From a virus: DNA of 34,777 nt. The DNA lies in IMG/VR virus record IMGVR_UViG_3300043409_000937, positions 1 to 34,777 of that record, one strand, 5' to 3'. Within the stretch, counting starts at the first letter, position 1. The number at the start of each line of letters is the position of its first letter. Positions 62 to 34,777 of this stretch are shown in pieces. Below the pieces are notes generated by a model. That model was not told the DNA's origin, did not search any database, and saw only the letters and a list, made by a program, of their open reading frames with translations. The translations under genes and the position numbers were made by a program.

Positions 62-280
62 ATGACAACCGCCGCCAGTTATGTTGCGCTCAACATCGGA
101 CACCACCTCATTAAATGGGCAGTTTCCCGCATTCGAGCTAAGGCAATGACACCGGAACAATTCGCTCTCCAGCATTCTCCGAACGCCAAGCCGAACGCTC
201 CGGTGCTGCGGACCATTGCCGTGGGCATCCGGGACATCATAAACGAAAAGCCCGAGAACCTACCCGAGACGCTGCGATGA
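62..280 (+). CDS. Hypothetical protein, first gene of packaging module
   Basis: This is a 72-residue basic protein that I do not recognise. The start ATG follows an A/C-rich leader with no Shine-Dalgarno sequence, a pattern shared by several structural genes here. The stop overlaps the next start as ATGA at 277-280, which suggests translational coupling to the small terminase gene. No membrane segment, cysteine pair or known motif is visible. The place between the genome end and the small terminase suggests a packaging or accessory role, but this rests only on position. Confidence 0.6.
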   Translation: MTTAASYVALNIGHHLIKWAVSRIRAKAMTPEQFALQHSPNAKPNAPVLRTIAVGIRDIINEKPENLPETLR

Positions 281-891
281 CCCAGACCGATTACGTCAAC
301 CACAGCGGTCTGACCAAGGGCCGGGTAAGCCAACTGGTGAAGGCCGGGATGCCGTTGACCTCGCCCGAGGCCGCGGACTCTTGGCGGGGCATGGGTGCCC
401 AGAAGCGCCCGGGGATCATCCCGAAATCTGCTTCGGGATCATCCGCAGATCCGGGACCGTATCGACCGCCCGAGGCCCAAGCACCTACAGACCCATCGTT
501 GATCTCAGCGGACACACCAGCGGGCTCCTACGAACGGCAAAAAGGCATCGAGAAAGCTGCCTACGCCTTGTCAGTGCGGGCGCTTAAGGCAGGGCAACCG
601 GACGCCGGCCGACTGGTTCAGATCCACAACAGCGCAGCCCGCAACCTGACCGCCGCCCGGGAGGAGGTGCTAACGTTAGCCGAGCGAGAACGAACGCTCG
701 TCTCCGGTGACTGGGTCCGAAAGGTCATGCAGGAACACGACGGAGCGGTCGCCACATTGCTGCGATCAATGCCCAAACAACTCGCCGGCCGGATCGCGCC
801 GCACGACCCCGAGCACGCAGAAAAGGAACTGGACCGCTGGGTTCAGGAAGTAGCCCTCGCAACCTTGCAGCAAACCGACCCATGGAAATAA
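277..891 (+). CDS. terS: Putative small terminase subunit (Nu1-like)
   Basis: This 204-residue protein has an N-terminal helix-turn-helix-like stretch at about residues 5-28 (YVNHSGLTKGRVSQLVKAG), as in Nu1-type DNA-packaging proteins that recognise the viral end and recruit the large subunit. A proline-rich linker follows at about residues 45-80. The second half is helical and charged, with a repeated Arg/Glu pattern and a segment around HDGAVATLLRSMPKQLAGRI that resembles the assembly part of small terminases. The ATG overlaps the previous stop, and the end overlaps the ParB-like gene by 10 bases. Position and HTH support the call; the family is not certain. Confidence 0.65.
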   Translation: MTQTDYVNHSGLTKGRVSQLVKAGMPLTSPEAADSWRGMGAQKRPGIIPKSASGSSADPGPYRPPEAQAPTDPSLISADTPAGSYERQKGIEKAAYALSVRALKAGQPDAGRLVQIHNSAARNLTAAREEVLTLAERERTLVSGDWVRKVMQEHDGAVATLLRSMPKQLAGRIAPHDPEHAEKELDRWVQEVALATLQQTDPWK

Positions 892-1526
892 AGACCAAGC
901 CAACCATCGAAAACGTCTCAATCGAGAAACTCAAAGCCTACGACCGCAACGCCCGGACCCATTCGTTTGAACAGGTCGCCCAGATCGCCGCTTCAATGGT
1001 CGAGTTTGGATTCACCAACCCGGTGTTGATCGACAAACATGGGACCATTGTGGCGGGGCACGGTCGCGTGGAAGCCGCCCGGTCGCTTGGATTGGAGGAC
1101 GTGCCTTGCATTCGATTGGAACACCTCACCGAGGATCAAGTCCGGGCCTATTGCTTGGCTGACAACAAGTTGGCACTTAATGCGGGTTGGAACATAGACG
1201 CCCTAGCCGGGGAATTAAAAGGCCTCGACGCGGTCGGTTTCGACCTAAGCTTGACCGGATTTAGCCCGGAGGAACTCGCCGAAATCATAGGCGACACCGT
1301 CGAAGACACCGACCCGCAGCAAGCCGCCCCAGAAGTCGAGTTCTCCGAGGAATTGCTCCACGCTCACAACTACGTTGTCTTGTACTTTGACAACCCGTTG
1401 GATTGGCAAGTCGCCCAAGAAAAGTTTGCACTTAAGGAGGTCAAAGACCTCATCCCCAGAAAAGGGCAACCCACCGGCATCGGACGGGTCATCCGAGGGT
1501 CCGAGTGGCTCAACCGCATCGCATGA
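882..1526 (+). CDS. ParB/sulfiredoxin-like nuclease-domain protein
   Basis: The 214-residue protein begins with a ParB N-terminal-type domain (about residues 10-100). Visible marks are NPVLID near residue 47, the signature GHGRVEAARSLG at 59-70, and VPCIRL followed by LTEDQVRAYCLADNKLA. Phage proteins with this domain are often fused to DNA methyltransferases, but here no methylase motifs follow. The C-terminal 60 residues carry an NYVVLYFDNPLDW segment typical of stand-alone phage members. It overlaps both the small terminase gene and the glycosyltransferase gene, so it is co-translated with them. It may act on DNA or nucleotides; the exact activity is unknown. Confidence 0.75.
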   Translation: MEIKTKPTIENVSIEKLKAYDRNARTHSFEQVAQIAASMVEFGFTNPVLIDKHGTIVAGHGRVEAARSLGLEDVPCIRLEHLTEDQVRAYCLADNKLALNAGWNIDALAGELKGLDAVGFDLSLTGFSPEELAEIIGDTVEDTDPQQAAPEVEFSEELLHAHNYVVLYFDNPLDWQVAQEKFALKEVKDLIPRKGQPTGIGRVIRGSEWLNRIA

Positions 1527-2308
1527 AAGACCCCACCGTCTCCGTCATCATCCCGTCGTTTCGGCGGGCTCACCCGGATCGCCTACCCGGTCGGGACTAC
1601 TTCCAGTCCGCCCGATACTGCGTCCCGGAATCCCAAGCGAAAGACTACGCCAACGTGGTCGGGGCGTCCCGGGTGTTGGCAATCCCGGACTCGGCCGACG
1701 GTAACATTGCCCGAAAACGGAACTGGATCCTCCGAAATATCCCGCGGCCGTTGCTCATGATCGACGACGACGTCAGCGGGCTTTGCCATACCGAAGGCGT
1801 CTACAAGCGCGGCCGGTGGACCGGAAAGAGCAACCAGAAGATTATGCTAACGCCGGAGCAAGCCGAAGACCTTATCATTCGTGGCTTTAACCTCGCTCAG
1901 CAGTTTGGGTGCGTTTTATGGGGTCTCAATCTCAACGAGGACGGGCGCATCTACAAACAGTTCAAACCGTTCTCGCTATCCGCCCCGGTGTTGGGGCCGT
2001 TCACCGGGCATTTGTCGCACCGATACCTCAACGACGAAAGGATGGGATCGAAGGACGACTACGACTTTGCGCTCCAAGTGTTGAACAAAGAGCGAAAGAT
2101 TCTCCGTCTAAATAAATACGCGTACGTCTGCGAACACGGGGACAATGCGGGCGGGATCGTGTCGAGCCGGACCATCGAGTCCGAAACCAAATTTTGCCGA
2201 GCCATTGAAAGAAAGTGGGGGCGGCACGTCATCCAATACTCACTGCAACCAAAACGCATGGCCGACTTGCTCAATGCCCGAGTCGCCGTCCCGATTGGGA
2301 ACGTCTGA
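1523..2308 (+). CDS. Putative TET-associated-type glycosyltransferase (TAGT-like)
   Basis: The protein has 261 residues from the ATG at 1523, chosen because it overlaps the preceding stop as ATGA; an in-frame GTG at 1505 is an alternative. The N-terminus VSVIIPSFRRAHPD is a GT-A nucleotide-sugar fold start. It is followed by RYCVPESQAKDY, a GNIARKRNWIL segment and MIDDDVSG with a DxD-type metal site at residues 81-83. This order matches the phage family named for its association with TET/JBP dioxygenases, which is thought to glycosylate oxidised bases in phage DNA. The family call is from recognition of the pattern. The acceptor in this phage is unknown, since no dioxygenase gene is visible. 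Confidence 0.7.
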   Translation: MKDPTVSVIIPSFRRAHPDRLPGRDYFQSARYCVPESQAKDYANVVGASRVLAIPDSADGNIARKRNWILRNIPRPLLMIDDDVSGLCHTEGVYKRGRWTGKSNQKIMLTPEQAEDLIIRGFNLAQQFGCVLWGLNLNEDGRIYKQFKPFSLSAPVLGPFTGHLSHRYLNDERMGSKDDYDFALQVLNKERKILRLNKYAYVCEHGDNAGGIVSSRTIESETKFCRAIERKWGRHVIQYSLQPKRMADLLNARVAVPIGNV

Positions 2309-4119
2309 TGTTCACCGACTTACAACGAGACCTTTTGGAGTTCCGCCGGGGCTTGTACCGACCGACACCGAGGCAAACCGTGGTCCAATGGGCTGAGGCC
2401 AATCTTAAACTGACCGCGAGGCAGACCGAGCATCCGGGACCGTACTCGACCAGCGTTCGACCCTACGTCAGGGAACCGCTCGAATGTTGGAAAGACTCAG
2501 GCGTGGTCGAAATGACGCTGTGCTGGGGATCTCAGACCAGCAAAACGACGACCCTGATGGCTGGCCTCGCGTGGTTGATCGACAACGAGCCAAGCCCGGC
2601 GCTCTGGTTAATGCCCACAGAACCCCTCGCCCGGTCGTTCTCAAAATCTCGATGGATGCCGATGCTGGAGGATTGCCCTGCCATGGTCGCGCATTTTCCG
2701 AGCGACAAGGACAAGCTGACCCACCTCGAACAGCATTTTGACCGCTCGACGCTAACTTTTGTGGGCACCAACAGCCCGGCCAACCTAGCCTCAAGACCCG
2801 TCCGGGTGCTGGTGGCCGACGAGGTTGATAAGTTCGCCCAGGCCTCAGACCGAGAAGCCGACGCGCTGGACTTGGCCGAGCAGCGCCTCAAGGCGTTCTC
2901 ATCCTCCAAACTGTTCTTGACCTCGACCCCGACCACCACCGAGGGCCGAATCTGGCAGCGGTTCCTTCGTGGGGACCAGCGCCGGTATTACCTGCCCTGC
3001 CCAAATTGCAAGGCCCTGATCCGGCTCGAGTGGAAACAAGTCAAATGGGACGAGAGCGCCAAGCATGAAGACGGCAAATGGGACTTCGGCCGGGTCCGTG
3101 GATCCGCCCGCTACGAGTGTCAACTTTGCAAGGGGGCCATCACCGACTCCCAAAAGGTCGCAAGTCTCCGGCACGGCCAATGGATCCCAGAAAACAAGGG
3201 TTCGTTGCCCGGGGTCCGATCTTACCATCTGTCGAGCCTTTATAGCCCAGACCGCAAATGCACATGGGGTCACCTAGCCGTGCAGTTTTTGGAGGCCCAG
3301 GAATCCCTGATCGGGCTTCAAGGCTTCATTAACGGCAACTTGAGCGAGCCATGGGAAAACCAAGCCGCGCCTCGACAACGCGAGGAGTTAATCGTCGCAG
3401 GGACCGAAGGCGTGCCCGAAAAGGCGATCAAGTTTTTGACCGTCGACTGTCAGGCTTCAAGCCCGCACTTCTGGTTTGTCGTCCGTGCATGGAACGAGGA
3501 CGGATCTTCCCGAGCCATCGACGCGGGACCGCTGGACACTTGGCACGACGTGAGGGAAAAGCAGTCCCATCACGGGGTGCAGGACGTCCACGTCATTATC
3601 GACTCAGGCTACGATGCTCCCAGCGTTTACTCAGAATGCCTCCGGTGGGGCCGATTCTTTCCGCGCACCGGCCGGGTGCCTCTGTGGGTTGGGTGGATGC
3701 CCGCCAAGGGAATGCCGAGGAAGGGTTGGCGCAACCCGAAAACCGGGGTGGAAGATCCATTCTTCCTCCGAGGCATTGACCCTCGTGTCGGCGACAACGC
3801 TGGCCGGCAGGGACGTCTTGAATTAAAGCTCTTGGAGTTTGGCACCGACGTGACAAAGGACATTCTCGAACGCCTCCGCAAGGGCAAGACAGCCACCCGG
3901 TGGGAGGTCGCCGATAACGTGGCCTCGCCGGAATACTGGAGGCACCTCGACTGCGAGCAAAAGGTCGCTCGACTTTCCAGCGCCACCGGCCGAACAACGT
4001 GGACGTGGTTGTCTCGTTCCTCAAAATGGCCGAATCACTTGGCCGACTGCGAAGTCATGCAAGTTGCCGGTGCAATTTTCCACAACCGCCTCCGCATGAC
4101 CAACTCCGATGCAAACTGA
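2308..4119 (+). CDS. terL: Terminase large subunit, lambda GpA family
   Basis: The 603-residue packaging ATPase/nuclease starts at an ATG that overlaps the upstream stop (TGATG, 2306-2310). The N-terminal ATPase has a Walker A-like loop GSQTSKTT at residues 74-81 and a Walker B VRVLVADEVD with acidic residues at 171-172. A motor coupling motif LFLTSTPT comes next, then two CxxC pairs (CPNC and CQLC) around LEWKQVKW that are typical of GpA proteins. The C-terminal nuclease half begins near KFLTVDCQ, with further acidic residues such as IIDSGYD. GpA-type enzymes usually cut at cos sites, in line with the short terminal repeat. An in-frame start at 2215 would lie inside the glycosyltransferase gene and is unlikely. 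Confidence 0.95.
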   Translation: MFTDLQRDLLEFRRGLYRPTPRQTVVQWAEANLKLTARQTEHPGPYSTSVRPYVREPLECWKDSGVVEMTLCWGSQTSKTTTLMAGLAWLIDNEPSPALWLMPTEPLARSFSKSRWMPMLEDCPAMVAHFPSDKDKLTHLEQHFDRSTLTFVGTNSPANLASRPVRVLVADEVDKFAQASDREADALDLAEQRLKAFSSSKLFLTSTPTTTEGRIWQRFLRGDQRRYYLPCPNCKALIRLEWKQVKWDESAKHEDGKWDFGRVRGSARYECQLCKGAITDSQKVASLRHGQWIPENKGSLPGVRSYHLSSLYSPDRKCTWGHLAVQFLEAQESLIGLQGFINGNLSEPWENQAAPRQREELIVAGTEGVPEKAIKFLTVDCQASSPHFWFVVRAWNEDGSSRAIDAGPLDTWHDVREKQSHHGVQDVHVIIDSGYDAPSVYSECLRWGRFFPRTGRVPLWVGWMPAKGMPRKGWRNPKTGVEDPFFLRGIDPRVGDNAGRQGRLELKLLEFGTDVTKDILERLRKGKTATRWEVADNVASPEYWRHLDCEQKVARLSSATGRTTWTWLSRSSKWPNHLADCEVMQVAGAIFHNRLRMTNSDAN

Positions 4120-6145: not shown

Positions 6146-7818
6146 AAAACTGGTACGAGATCAAAGCACAAGCCCAATCGGATCAACCGATTGAGGTTCT
6201 GATTTACGACGAGATCGGAGGCTGGGGGATCACGGCTGCTCAGTTTGTGCGCGACGTCAAAGCCCTCGGCAATGGTCCGATCAATGTCCGCATCAACTCG
6301 CCCGGCGGGTCGGTGTTCGACGGTCTGGCAATTTACCACTATCTGTCGTCTCGGCCTGACGTGACCGTCACCGTGGACGGCATTGCTGCCTCGATTGCTT
6401 CCATCATCGCCATGGCTGGCGCCAAACGCGTCATGCCCGCGTCGGCTTATCTGATGATCCACAACCCGTGGACCGGTGCTATCGGTGACGCCAATGACCT
6501 CCGCGAACAAGCCGATCTCCTCGACAAGTTGGGCGAGACCCTCGCCGGGATCTACTCGAAGGTGACCAAGAAGGGCAAAGAAGCTATCCGCACCATGATG
6601 GACGCGGAGACTTGGATCGACGGCACCATGGCTCTGTCTGATGGATTCATGACCGACCTGACCGATGCCAAACCAATTTACGCCAAGGTCCGTGCCGACC
6701 GATTCGCTTGCACTCCGACCGCCTTGGTTCAGGCCGCAGCGCCGTCTGAACTCATGGTTGATGACTGTGTCAGTTGGAACGATTCAACCGGCACCGCTTA
6801 CGGAGAAATTCTCGAAATCAAACGCGAGGGCACTCTTGAACTGCCAGACGCTGGAATCCTAGTCGTTGCCTCCGCAGCCGATCCCGCTGCCTTGATTCAG
6901 CGGCATCAACCCATCCCGGGGACGGACGCTTTCGTCGAGGGGGACATTCTCGTTGGACTCAATTTCTCCCAACTGACCAAGGTCGAAGGCCTGAAAATTG
7001 TTGAGACCGAGTACAAGGACTCCAAGGTTGGTGACATTCAAGCCGTTTCAAAGACCGCGCCTCAAGCCGCTCGCAACGCATTTGACAAAGGCGTCAAGCA
7101 GGTCGAAGACGGCAAAGGTGGGGACGGACTTGAACCGGCAACCGTGAAGGAAGCCCGCAGCCTCAAGGCTGGCGAGGCACCGACCGAAGCCAAGATCCGC
7201 AAAGCTTACCGTTGGTGGGCTCGCAATGAGCGGTTCCTTGAAGCCGAAGTGGACAGCCCGGCTGACGTTGCTGGCAATCTTTGGGGCGGTGCTGCTGGCC
7301 GTGACTGGTTCCGCGCTCTGTACGCGCAACTGGAAGCAGAGACGGAGTCAAACAAAACAACCGAGACTGACCAAAACAACATCGAAACCATGCAAAAACT
7401 GCTTCAGAGTCTGACCGCCGCCGGTTTGATTTCCTCCGTTGACCTCGCCGAAGACGCCGTGGTCGCTGAGTTTGAGACCAACTTCGCCAACTTCGCCAAG
7501 GCCAAGGCCGACGCTCAGGCCTCGTTGGACGAGATCGCCAATGCCAAGATTGTTGCCACCGTCGAGGCTGCAATCGCTGACGGGCGCATCATGGCGAGCG
7601 GCAAGGACGCCTGGGTTGCCCAGATCAAGTCCGACGCCAAGGCCTCTGATTTACTGGCTGTCATCCAAACGATGAAGCCCGGATCCGACCCAGTCGGCGC
7701 TCCGGTTTCCTCGGGCGAAAAAGCCTCCGATCTTCGCGCTGAATTTGCACGGATCACTGATCCCAAACAGCGCACTACTTTCTGGTCCGCCAACAAGGCC
7801 CAGTTGCTTCAACAGTAA
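6142..7818 (+). CDS. ClpP-type head maturation protease fused to scaffold-like region
   Basis: The 558-residue protein starts with GTG overlapping the portal stop. Residues about 15-175 are an S14/ClpP-like serine protease: RINSPGGSVFDGLAIY, catalytic Ser84 in GIAASIAS, His107 in LMIHNP, and a likely Asp154 in MMDAETWI. A Tudor-like beta segment (VSWNDSTGTAYGEILEI, near residue 212) and a charged linker follow. The last ~140 residues are alanine-rich and helical, like a scaffold. Lambda gpC has the same protease-scaffold plan, in which the protease removes the scaffold after shell assembly. The major capsid gene follows 21 bases later. Confidence 0.9.
   Translation: MKNWYEIKAQAQSDQPIEVLIYDEIGGWGITAAQFVRDVKALGNGPINVRINSPGGSVFDGLAIYHYLSSRPDVTVTVDGIAASIASIIAMAGAKRVMPASAYLMIHNPWTGAIGDANDLREQADLLDKLGETLAGIYSKVTKKGKEAIRTMMDAETWIDGTMALSDGFMTDLTDAKPIYAKVRADRFACTPTALVQAAAPSELMVDDCVSWNDSTGTAYGEILEIKREGTLELPDAGILVVASAADPAALIQRHQPIPGTDAFVEGDILVGLNFSQLTKVEGLKIVETEYKDSKVGDIQAVSKTAPQAARNAFDKGVKQVEDGKGGDGLEPATVKEARSLKAGEAPTEAKIRKAYRWWARNERFLEAEVDSPADVAGNLWGGAAGRDWFRALYAQLEAETESNKTTETDQNNIETMQKLLQSLTAAGLISSVDLAEDAVVAEFETNFANFAKAKADAQASLDEIANAKIVATVEAAIADGRIMASGKDAWVAQIKSDAKASDLLAVIQTMKPGSDPVGAPVSSGEKASDLRAEFARITDPKQRTTFWSANKAQLLQQ
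7390..7818 (+). CDS. Possible nested scaffold protein (Nu3-like in-frame start)
   Basis: An in-frame ATG at codon 417 of the protease gene would give a separate 142-residue protein made only of the helical scaffold part. The ATG follows an A/C-rich leader (AACAACATCGAAACC) that looks like the leaders of other starts in this genome, and it lies exactly where the low-complexity Glu/Thr/Asn linker ends and the helical domain begins. In lambda, Nu3 arises this way inside gene C. No independent proof of initiation is visible. Confidence 0.4.
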   Translation: MQKLLQSLTAAGLISSVDLAEDAVVAEFETNFANFAKAKADAQASLDEIANAKIVATVEAAIADGRIMASGKDAWVAQIKSDAKASDLLAVIQTMKPGSDPVGAPVSSGEKASDLRAEFARITDPKQRTTFWSANKAQLLQQ

Positions 7819-7839
7819 ACTCACACACCCAAACACACC

Positions 7840-8730
7840 ATGGCTAACACCCTCGATTCCGGCCTGAATGGGACGCTCATCTCCCAGGCGGGCCTAGACG
7901 CTTTCGTTGGAGCTTTTGCTCCCATGCAAGCCTTCACCACCGACTTTGACCCGGCTCCGGCCTCGAAGTCTGACACCATCCAAGTGCCTTACGTTCCGGC
8001 CGCTTCTGCCGCCGCGGACTTTTCCGGCACCTACACCCGTCAGGACAGCACCCTGAACAAGCGCACGATCACGCTCAACAAACACAAGTTTGTCACTTGG
8101 TTCCTGTCCGACGTGTCCATGGCTAAGTCGCCCGCCGCGACTTTGGAGCGCTTCGGTATGCAGAAGGGCTTCCAGTTGGCCAAGGCCGTGTTTCAGGACA
8201 TTTTGTCCGCGGTCACCAGCACCAACTACGGATCCGCTGCCCACACCGGTGTGGCCGCAAACTTCGATTACGCGGACGTGGTCGACATCAAGGACGCTTG
8301 CGACACCGCAGATATGCCCGAGGTGCCCCGCTCGTTGATCCTTGGATCCAGCTACTACAACGCCCTGCTGAAGGACTCCGTCATCAAGGACGCCGCCGCC
8401 CTCGGTGCGACTGCTAACCAGACCGGTTCCCTCCCGAACCTGTCCGGCTTCATGACCTACCGGTCGAGCCTAATCCCGGGCAACTCCCAGAACCTCGTAG
8501 GCTTCGCCGCTTACCCTTCCGCGCTCATCACCGCGATGCGTTACCTCCAGCCCGCTGGCCGCAGCCAAGATGGGGTCTATCGACCCGTGGCTGACGAAAA
8601 GACCGGCATCACCCTTGGCTACCGCGAGTTCTACGACAACGACACCGGAAACGTCGTCGCTGTGCTTGAGTGTTTCTATGGCTACGCTCTCGGCGAGGCC
8701 AATTCGCTCAAGCGGATCATCTCGGCCTAA
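7840..8730 (+). CDS. Major capsid protein
   Basis: This 296-residue protein lies directly after the protease/scaffold gene. It has an HK97-fold-like pattern: an N-terminal arm, a beta-rich segment with SDTIQVPYVPAASAA and TYTRQDSTLNKRTITLNKHK, a spine-helix region (RFGMQKGFQLAKAVFQDIL), and a C-terminal axial domain with SSYYNALLKDSVIKDA and TLGYREFYDNDTGN. It is unlike lambda gpE and closer to the non-lambda coat families by general look. The leader CACACCCAAACACACC lacks a Shine-Dalgarno sequence although the product must be abundant. The call rests on position, size and fold pattern. Confidence 0.85.
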   Translation: MANTLDSGLNGTLISQAGLDAFVGAFAPMQAFTTDFDPAPASKSDTIQVPYVPAASAAADFSGTYTRQDSTLNKRTITLNKHKFVTWFLSDVSMAKSPAATLERFGMQKGFQLAKAVFQDILSAVTSTNYGSAAHTGVAANFDYADVVDIKDACDTADMPEVPRSLILGSSYYNALLKDSVIKDAAALGATANQTGSLPNLSGFMTYRSSLIPGNSQNLVGFAAYPSALITAMRYLQPAGRSQDGVYRPVADEKTGITLGYREFYDNDTGNVVAVLECFYGYALGEANSLKRIISA

Positions 8731-31084: not shown

Positions 31085-31249
31085 CTGTCAGCAGTCGCCG
31101 GAATAGGTGACACGGGAGTGAGACCCCGACAACAGAATGAAACCAGAAATCCCAATCCAACCACCGGCAGAGGCTTCCCCTGAGCGCAAAGCTCAGGCTC
31201 TGTGCCAACTCTCACCTGTCAGTGGTTGGATTGGGGATTCACTCGTAAA
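31085..31249 (+). promoter_or_regulatory. Structured intergenic region with nested inverted repeats
   Basis: Left arm 31148-31164 (AATCCCAATCCAACCAC) pairs with right arm 31222-31239, with 14 uninterrupted pairs and one extra G in the right arm. Inside lies a perfect 7-bp stem CCTGAGC/GCTCAGG (31179-31185, 31191-31197) with loop GCAAA, and CAGAG/CTCTG flank it. CTGTCAG occurs at 31085 and 31216, and AGGTGA at 31105 could pair with TCACCT at 31212. No open frame is evident here. It could be a small RNA, a leader that controls the methyltransferase, or a protein-binding cruciform. Confidence 0.65.
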
Positions 31250-32497
31250 ATGATCCCCAAAACTATCACCATCGCCGACCTGTTCTGCGGAGCAGGAGGC
31301 ACCAGCACCGGAGCGATCCAAGCGATCATAAAGTTAGGTTTCAGACCACAACTGACAGCCGTCAATCATTGGGACCGAGCGGTCGCCACACACTCAGCAA
31401 ATCACCCAGCGGCTCGCCATTTGTGTGCGTCCATTGACTCGCTGAACCCTCGCCATCTGTTCAAGGAAGACGAACTGGACATTCTTTGGGCAAGCCCAGA
31501 ATGCACTCACCACAGCAGAGCCCGAGGGGGAAAACCTATGCTGGACCAAAGCAGGGCAACGGCTTGGTGCGTTGCTCGTTGGGCCGAGGCGCTAAGACCC
31601 TCGATCGTCATGGTGGAAAATGTCCCAGAGTTTGAGGAATGGGGGCCTCTCGGAAGTGACGGCAAACCGTTACAGAGCCGCAAAGGCGAAACATTCAAGG
31701 CATGGGTTCTCGCTATGAGGTCCATTGGATACACGGTCGACCATCGGATTCTCTGTGCAGCAGACTTTGGTGACCCAACAACCCGCCGAAGGTTGTTTGT
31801 TCAAGCTGTCCGAGGTCGCCGAAAAATTATCTGGCCTGACCCAACCCACTCGAAGGAAGCGGATTTGTTTTCGAGACCGCGCTGGAAGTCTGCCGCTGAT
31901 TCCGTCATCGACTGGTCAATTCCGACGCAAGTGATCGCTGATCGAAAACGGCCGCTGGCGCCAAAGACTTTAAAACGGATTCGCGAGGGTCTTGCCCGGT
32001 ACGGTGGGGGCCCGGTCATCATTGCAATGGAACACGGTGGCCGCAGCCTATCGGCAGACGCACCACTGCCCACCGTGACTTGCGCCAGAGGCGGGGCGAT
32101 GGGAGTTGCTTACCTTTTGCCTCAGCACGGTGGAGGAAACCTTAGGCCGGCAACGATGCCTTGTCCGACCGTGGCGACATCAGGGGCCATTGCGTTGATC
32201 TTGGAATATTACGGGACGGGTCAAGCCAGGCCCGTAACCGACCCTTTACCTACGGTAACCTGCCACGACCGCTTTGGACTGCTTCAAACTGATCAAAACC
32301 GAATTGGATTCCGAATGCTCCAGCCCAAAGAGTTGGCGGCTGCGCAAGGTTTTCCCGATGGATACCAATTCACAGGAACCAAGACCGAACAAGTCAAACA
32401 AATCGGAAACGCGGTCCCGTGTGGGTTCTCCCGAGCCCTGATCACCGCGCAACTTACCCAAAACTCTGACGTGTCAGAAATGAGGGCCGCAGCATGA
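31250..32497 (+). CDS. DNA cytosine-C5 methyltransferase
   Basis: The 415-residue protein is taken from ATG 31250; an in-frame GTG at 31202 lies within the hairpin. Motif I is DLFCGAGGTSTG (residues 10-21). The catalytic Cys85 is in ASPECTHHS, a variant of the usual PPCQ motif IV. ENV at 123-125 is motif VI, and DPTTRRRLF is motif VIII. The end has LQPKELAAAQGFPDGY and QIGNAVP (motif X). Between them are three P-x-PTV units about 30 residues apart, likely in the target recognition part. It makes 5-methylcytosine in phage or host DNA. Confidence 0.93.
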   Translation: MIPKTITIADLFCGAGGTSTGAIQAIIKLGFRPQLTAVNHWDRAVATHSANHPAARHLCASIDSLNPRHLFKEDELDILWASPECTHHSRARGGKPMLDQSRATAWCVARWAEALRPSIVMVENVPEFEEWGPLGSDGKPLQSRKGETFKAWVLAMRSIGYTVDHRILCAADFGDPTTRRRLFVQAVRGRRKIIWPDPTHSKEADLFSRPRWKSAADSVIDWSIPTQVIADRKRPLAPKTLKRIREGLARYGGGPVIIAMEHGGRSLSADAPLPTVTCARGGAMGVAYLLPQHGGGNLRPATMPCPTVATSGAIALILEYYGTGQARPVTDPLPTVTCHDRFGLLQTDQNRIGFRMLQPKELAAAQGFPDGYQFTGTKTEQVKQIGNAVPCGFSRALITAQLTQNSDVSEMRAAA

Positions 32498-34266: not shown

Positions 34267-34777
34267 ATGAGAAACAAATACTATCTGACCAACAAGGTTC
34301 AGCCCGGTGAGATCAAGCCCGGGTTTGCCGATGCAGCCAAGGCACTAGCCGAGGCCGACGACCTAGTGGCCTATGGGCTACGACGTGGCCTTATGTCCTA
34401 CCCGCATGGCACCCAGTTCGACGCCACTGGCCGACCCATCCCGAAGCTCCAAGCAACCCGGGCGACCTACACCAAGCCAATCGAGAGCTACTCATGCCTC
34501 AGGGCTTACCTCATGCGCGACAACGGATCGACCCATGCCGAGATCGCAAGGGCCGTCCAATCCTCAATCGTCAAGGTGCCGGCAATAATTGCCCACGGTA
34601 AGACGCTGTGGCTTGCCCAAGGAGCCGCCGTGACCACCGGCAAGGGTAAGGAGACCAATCAGCAATCAAAACGCGCCAGCGGGGCAGCAGCGCACGCGGC
34701 GGGGCATCCAATGGCAGGCACCTCCCCCCGGATGGGAACCCTCCCGGCCAAAACCTTGCACGCAGGGGCCAAAGCAG
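34267..34777 (+). CDS. Partial ORF running off the window end
   Basis: An ATG at 34267 opens a frame with no stop in the next 170 codons to the window end. The first part (QPGEIKPGFADAAKALAEADDLVAYGLRRGLM) is helical. A central part (SYSCLRAYLMRDNGSTHAEIARAVQSSIVKVPAIIAHG) has a helix-turn-helix look, with H-A-E-I-A-R-A-V as the first helix. The C-terminus is Ala/Gly/Lys-rich. If the two ends are joined through the 13-base repeat, the frame ends at TGA 20-22, giving about 172 residues. DNA-binding function is likely but not certain. Confidence 0.65.
   Translation, partial: MRNKYYLTNKVQPGEIKPGFADAAKALAEADDLVAYGLRRGLMSYPHGTQFDATGRPIPKLQATRATYTKPIESYSCLRAYLMRDNGSTHAEIARAVQSSIVKVPAIIAHGKTLWLAQGAAVTTGKGKETNQQSKRASGAAAHAAGHPMAGTSPRMGTLPAKTLHAGAKA
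34765..34777. repeat. Right copy of 13-bp terminal direct repeat
   Basis: The last 13 bases match bases 2-14. Joining the ends through one copy keeps the last ORF open until a stop at 20-22. This supports circular or cohesive-ended topology of about 34,764 bases. Confidence 0.8.

Follow-up and report, generated by a model that had tools for sequence, protein, structure and literature searches.

A ParB-domain protein and a TAGT-family glycosyltransferase form, as judged from sequence comparison, a real and widespread two-gene module, which in all records tested stands apart from the TET pathway. The comparison establishes the pair itself, a ParB tail that is specific to this partner and diverges together with the enzyme, the fold of the enzyme and the position of the pair. 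It likewise shows that the pair does not depend on any detectable gene for TET, a C5-methyltransferase or a hydroxymethylase of the thymidylate-synthase type. We propose a late phage module in which the tail probably docks the glycosyltransferase and a sugar from an NDP-sugar is put onto virion DNA.

The window, that is the whole stretch of DNA analysed, is an IMG/VR virus record of 34,777 nt; many of the contigs used for comparison are fragments. The same 13 bases (GGGGCCAAAGCAG) are present at positions 2-14 and 34765-34777, and in the circularly permuted relative G003 the two ends of the window join internally with exactly this 13-base overlap. The window is thus effectively a complete genome, so that the absence of a gene from it carries meaning. 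Relative G001 has ends identical to those of the window, and these shared 13-base ends, located directly 5' of the gene for the terminase small subunit (TerS), may represent a cohesive-end (cos) site.

The pair is located between the genes for TerS and the terminase large subunit, TerL (Table 1). Both the ORF table and the sequence indicate that TerS ends at 891 and ParB starts at 882; the tetranucleotide ATGA at 1523-1526 overlaps the ParB stop with the TAGT start, and base 2308 is common to the TAGT stop and the TerL start. The first-pass annotation had described a ParB and glycosyltransferase pair between the two terminase genes with overlapping codons, and coordinates, order and overlaps all match that description. 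The PHROG assignments (phrog_57 for TerS and phrog_842 for TAGT) are consistent with the Pfam calls.

Table 1. Features of the terminase locus and the C5-methyltransferase gene in the window.
Feature	Position	Strand	Evidence
Terminase small subunit TerS, flanking landmark	277..891	+	phrog_57, E 2.8e-6
ParB_N-domain protein, 214 aa	882..1526	+	PF02195, 27.5 bits; ParB/Noc fold model
TAGT-specific C-terminal ParB tail, last 63 aa	1335..1523	+	Present-absent pattern; co-divergence with TAGT
TAGT-family GT-A glycosyltransferase, 261 aa	1523..2308	+	PF20691, 39.5 bits; AlphaFold2 model; alignments
Terminase large subunit TerL GpA, flanking landmark	2308..4119	+	PF05876, 213.5 bits; PF20454, 68 bits
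C5-cytosine methyltransferase, judged outside the module	31250..32497	+	PF00145, 121.6 bits

The assignment of the 261-residue protein to the TAGT family was borne out by a profile search, in which PF20691 was matched above its curated cut-off (27.5 bits) in two stretches (profile 3-93 and 168-205), and the fold agrees with it. Relatives of the protein score 40-63 bits, with that of locus L021 slightly under the cut-off at 27.0. The AlphaFold2 model (pLDDT 88.7) shows a GT-A fold with a metal-binding DxD-type site, DDD at residues 81-83, which is invariant across 34 TAGT sequences; alignments reveal D179/D181, GG210-211 and WG232-233 as further invariant residues. Among viral structures the model matches TAGT proteins and a beta-glucosyl-HMC-alpha-glucosyltransferase with TM of about 0.7-0.8, the homologue of the latter from Klebsiella PKO111 giving 0.71. 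The gene is under strong purifying selection (dN/dS 0.04-0.08), which argues that it is not a chance ORF. Furthermore, its dS of 0.33-0.45 against three relatives is low compared with about 1.1 for TerL, and at locus L016 the amino-acid divergence of TAGT exceeds that of the neighbouring genes; both suggest that the ParB-TAGT module is exchanged by recombination.

No convincing solved relative of TAGT was found by sequence search, and the top Foldseek match among solved structures is AvpGT (9jn3, E 1.1e-5), an enzyme that glucosylates nucleosides (PMC11959488). TAGT might accordingly be imagined to glycosylate the sugar hydroxyls of nucleosides, nucleotides or DNA ends in the manner of this nucleoside 3'-O-glucosyltransferase. 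We regard this as very improbable, since AvpGT aligns at 14% identity and TM 0.51, many GT2-type enzymes equal it by VIA-align (Z 12-14), and such an activity leaves the ParB adaptor unexplained.

Scans by TAGT alone detected relatives both in bacterial genomes and in contigs of viruses; in 30 of 32 representatives (<80% identity) a ParB gene lies upstream, either next to TAGT or close by. The same arrangement, with the tail-bearing ParB upstream of TAGT, is present in all seven loci from bacterial genomes, which belong to Verrucomicrobia/Lentisphaerae, Bacteroides, Phascolarctobacterium and Treponema. The pairing proposed from one genome thus recurs in many phages that are unrelated to one another. 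When the tail alone was used for the scan, TAGT was found downstream at 44/44 loci examined, mostly overlapping, with one gene between the two in a few loci (L130, L131 and L174). The pooled locus set, which is partly redundant, comprises 172 loci with both, none with the tail alone and 11 with TAGT alone; of these 11, three are contigs that are cut off, six carry outgroup TAGTs, and the other two are L021 and L199, the last having a diverged tail visible by eye. In 131/167 pairs the ParB gene ends in ATGA or GTGA, the usual overlap. Across the 32 representatives the pair has no other conserved neighbours besides terminase, small-terminase-like and head genes. Locus L021 counts against the module, as a radical SAM/SPASM gene (79-1104) takes the place of ParB upstream of an in-clade TAGT, with a start/stop overlap. 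Tandem TAGT genes behind a single ParB occur at L020 (7437-8156 and 10004-10765, with a DUF5131/radical-SAM-like gene between them) and also at L076, L081 and L084.

The ParB protein comprises a ParB/Srx-fold N-terminal domain (residues ~9-136), a linker and the C-terminal partner tail. PF02195 is matched just over its cut-off of 26.3 bits, and the model contains a confident ParB/Noc-type domain (Z ~15 to ParB/Noc structures), while the linker and the tail, the latter modelled only within the whole ParB, are of low confidence. No ParA partner was seen among the genes assigned. The ParBs adjoining TAGT have in common a tail of about 60 residues with the consensus EVxFSEELLLxHNYIVLYFDNxxDWxVA...GIGRVIxG, which is better conserved than the ParB_N domain (mean top-residue frequency 0.67 vs 0.45). 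Its distances correlate with those of TAGT with r=0.66, whereas the ParB_N domain gives r=0.20 (bootstrap difference 0.22-0.74, 27 loci). Because the tail co-diverges with TAGT and the ParB_N domain does so far less, we infer that it is a docking tail for TAGT carried on a separately evolving ParB_N domain.

The position adjoining the terminase, to which the first-pass annotation had attached meaning, is indeed shared with other systems, since in other phages the same place bears ParB with other DNA modifiers. Beside the terminase we found ParB with Mom in Psychrobacter phage Y8A (PF25680, 188 bits), ParB with ABC-ATPase/GNAT in Pasteurella phage Pmp13, a ParB-methylase fusion in Verrucomicrobia phage P8625, and ParB with TAGT in Streptococcus phage Javan291. 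In contigs of viruses, 66/74 Mom loci and 40/40 ABC-GNAT loci have ParB_N directly upstream, and none of the 125 loci inspected has the TAGT tail. Since every tail profile was trained on the set it stands for, the informative values are the cross-comparisons alone: the TAGT-tail profile matches 33/33 ParBs of its set and 0/67 in the other sets, the Mom-tail profile 36/36 and 0/64, and the ABC-GNAT-tail profile 31/31 with cross-matches of 3/36 and 7/33, which count against the module. These loci are best read as an interchangeable late cassette composed of a ParB adaptor and a DNA-modifying enzyme, each enzyme apparently with its own tail.

Of these enzymes, Mom is known to modify adenine at N6, and ABC-GNAT is predicted to modify bases (PMC7824862). 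That the same ParB adaptor partners known or predicted DNA base modifiers is our main reason for regarding DNA as the TAGT substrate, and DNA glycosylation is the likeliest function of the enzyme, one that we consider probable by analogy. GT-A folds are also found on enzymes modifying proteins, glycans and free nucleosides, which counts against a DNA substrate; the acceptor could then be a protein, namely ParB itself, terminase or a head protein, as might fit the resemblance to GT-A enzymes that modify proteins, for instance GalNAc-T2 (Z ~13), and the packaging genes that surround the pair. However, the ParB partner elsewhere goes with DNA modifiers, no Ser or Thr is invariant in the tail alignments, and proteins named as TAGT or DNA glucosyltransferase are among the nearest viral matches by fold, so that a protein acceptor appears improbable.

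The presence of a C5-methyltransferase in the genome, as first annotated, is confirmed (Table 1), and its sequence contains the Cys (PEC), ENV, RR and GNAV motifs. Together with this gene a pathway had been envisaged in which 5mC made by the phage enzyme is oxidised, by the host or by an enzyme that escaped notice, and then glycosylated by TAGT. This does not withstand the comparison: the methyltransferase occurs in 3/31 TAGT-carrying records and is absent from 28/31, and three relatives that keep the pair with 95-98% identical TAGT (G001, G003 and G005) have no C5-methyltransferase match and lack the syntenic segment. In the window a replication gene comes after the methyltransferase; in G005 this gene directly follows a conserved hairpin. 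From synteny and distribution the link with TAGT was rejected; on this sequence evidence METHYLTRANSFERASE is incidental to the pair and the C5-methyltransferase is an inserted accessory gene. Furthermore, TET/JBP (PF12851) gave no match at E<=1 in the window and in 37 records of TAGT relatives, seven bacterial genomes included, in searches run without a phage TET positive control. The pathway through 5mC is hence hardly credible. As TET/JBP is undetected in these 38 records, including the bacterial genomes that carry the genes, a TET-type host oxidase preparing the acceptor, which had also been suggested, is unlikely. The hairpin at 31146-31244, 5' of the methyltransferase gene (-51 kcal/mol, z -6.4), is present as the same element in two relatives with compensatory changes at 9 pairs, and Rfam gave no match over the window, this hairpin included.

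The earlier statement that no dioxygenase is detectable stands, since neither PF12851 nor the AlkB-like PF13532 has a match in the window and the larger ORFs fit other families or nothing. A dioxygenase hidden in a large ORF was rejected, the larger ORFs with matches belonging to head, tail, nuclease or uncharacterised phage families; ORFs 9235, 10983 and 12457 have no informative match. A thymidylate-synthase-type hydroxymethylase was likewise discarded as the maker of the acceptor, no such gene being detectable in the window and PF00303 being absent from all 27 phage records with a working positive control (MW202897, 87 bits).

None of the genes conserved beside the pair codes for an enzyme that makes a hydroxyl acceptor, which counts against the module as we propose it. 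Within the same module, an unrecognised phage enzyme or a non-TET host enzyme might first hydroxylate or otherwise functionalise the base, and TAGT would then glycosylate that handle. Such a preparatory step, which we hold to be possible though doubtful, is in line with the T2/T6 relatives, which act on hydroxymethyl-derived groups and, needing no TET, put a second glucose on already glucosylated hmC (PMC13216743, PMC13390438), with the outgroup TAGT of MW202897, which adjoins a pyrimidine hydroxymethylase, and with the radical SAM/SPASM genes in the cassettes of two loci, L021 and L036. It is opposed by the absence of PF00303 and PF12851 just described and by the lack of a third gene kept with the pair. 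The ParB partners methyltransferases and Mom act on unmodified bases, and by this likeness TAGT, guided by ParB, might glycosylate an unmodified base directly and with no hydroxylation step, a suggestion that we make only tentatively. Equally tentative is the wider idea that the late regions of phages harbour a general plug-in system, in which one ParB adaptor would take up different DNA-modifying enzymes by means of enzyme-specific tails.

In the mechanism that we favour, the C-terminal tail of ParB would dock TAGT, the ParB_N domain would carry the docked enzyme to the phage DNA at about the time when this is packaged, and TAGT would transfer the sugar from the NDP-sugar to virion DNA, where it may hinder host nucleases.

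The module is found in prophages of cultured hosts, and a diverged form of it in isolated phages of Microbacterium cluster EC, a distant TAGT relative being present in 56 Microbacterium phage records. In Metamorphoo and Quhwah, TAGT comes after the ParB gene (directly, or with one small gene between in Quhwah) and before a UDP-glucose dehydrogenase gene (PF00984, 59 bits in Metamorphoo); the TAGT of Metamorphoo keeps the motifs and scores under Pfam detection. A Microbacterium genome paper lists glycosyltransferase and UDP-glucose dehydrogenase genes without an assigned role (PMC7302621). In L199, also a Microbacterium phage, a compact UDP-glucose dehydrogenase-like gene behind the pair (7072-7854) hints at a uronic-acid sugar donor. 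Some loci contain, in or beside the cassette, FkbM or other methyltransferases, radical SAM/SPASM genes or a weak phosphoribosyltransferase-like gene, none of them general. Those of the last type lie near the pair in L030 (9524-10129, PF00156 22 bits, below cut-off) and L032 (1793-2374), and similar-looking genes in L031 and L192 match no Pfam family. These genes in or beside the cassette look as if they served tailoring, and such neighbours, like the UDP-glucose dehydrogenase, speak for the module as we propose it.

A full-text literature search for ParB with TAGT returned nothing relevant, the founding TAGT papers (Iyer 2013, Burke 2021) being outside its reach. The present loci share the PF20691 glycosyltransferase family with the phage TET-TAGT clusters for cytosine hypermodification, but differ from them in that TET is absent from the records searched, the C5-methyltransferase is not conserved and the ParB partner is nearly obligate. 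TAGT enzymes are thereby separated from the TET pathway that gave them their name, which predicts a DNA glycosylation route outside that pathway. The T2/T6 beta-glucosyl-HMC-alpha-glucosyltransferase belongs to the same Pfam family and has a similar fold, and no ParB tail is known to accompany it; T2/T6 phages make hmC at the nucleotide level, whereas PF00303 is absent from the present phages. The ParB-methyltransferase, ParB-Mom and ParB-ABC-GNAT loci have the same ParB_N adaptor, placed directly before the modifier gene or joined to it as a fusion and frequently beside the terminase, and differ in the enzyme and in the C-terminal tail of ParB. The CmoX/CmoY carboxymethylcytosine system also has ParB-domain proteins in its neighbourhood, whose function is there called unknown, although it works with an amide ligase and a homologue of C5-methyltransferases and not with a glycosyltransferase (PMC12783734). 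The small ParB proteins found beside phage DNA-modification enzymes gain a proposed role, that of an adaptor with an enzyme-specific tail.
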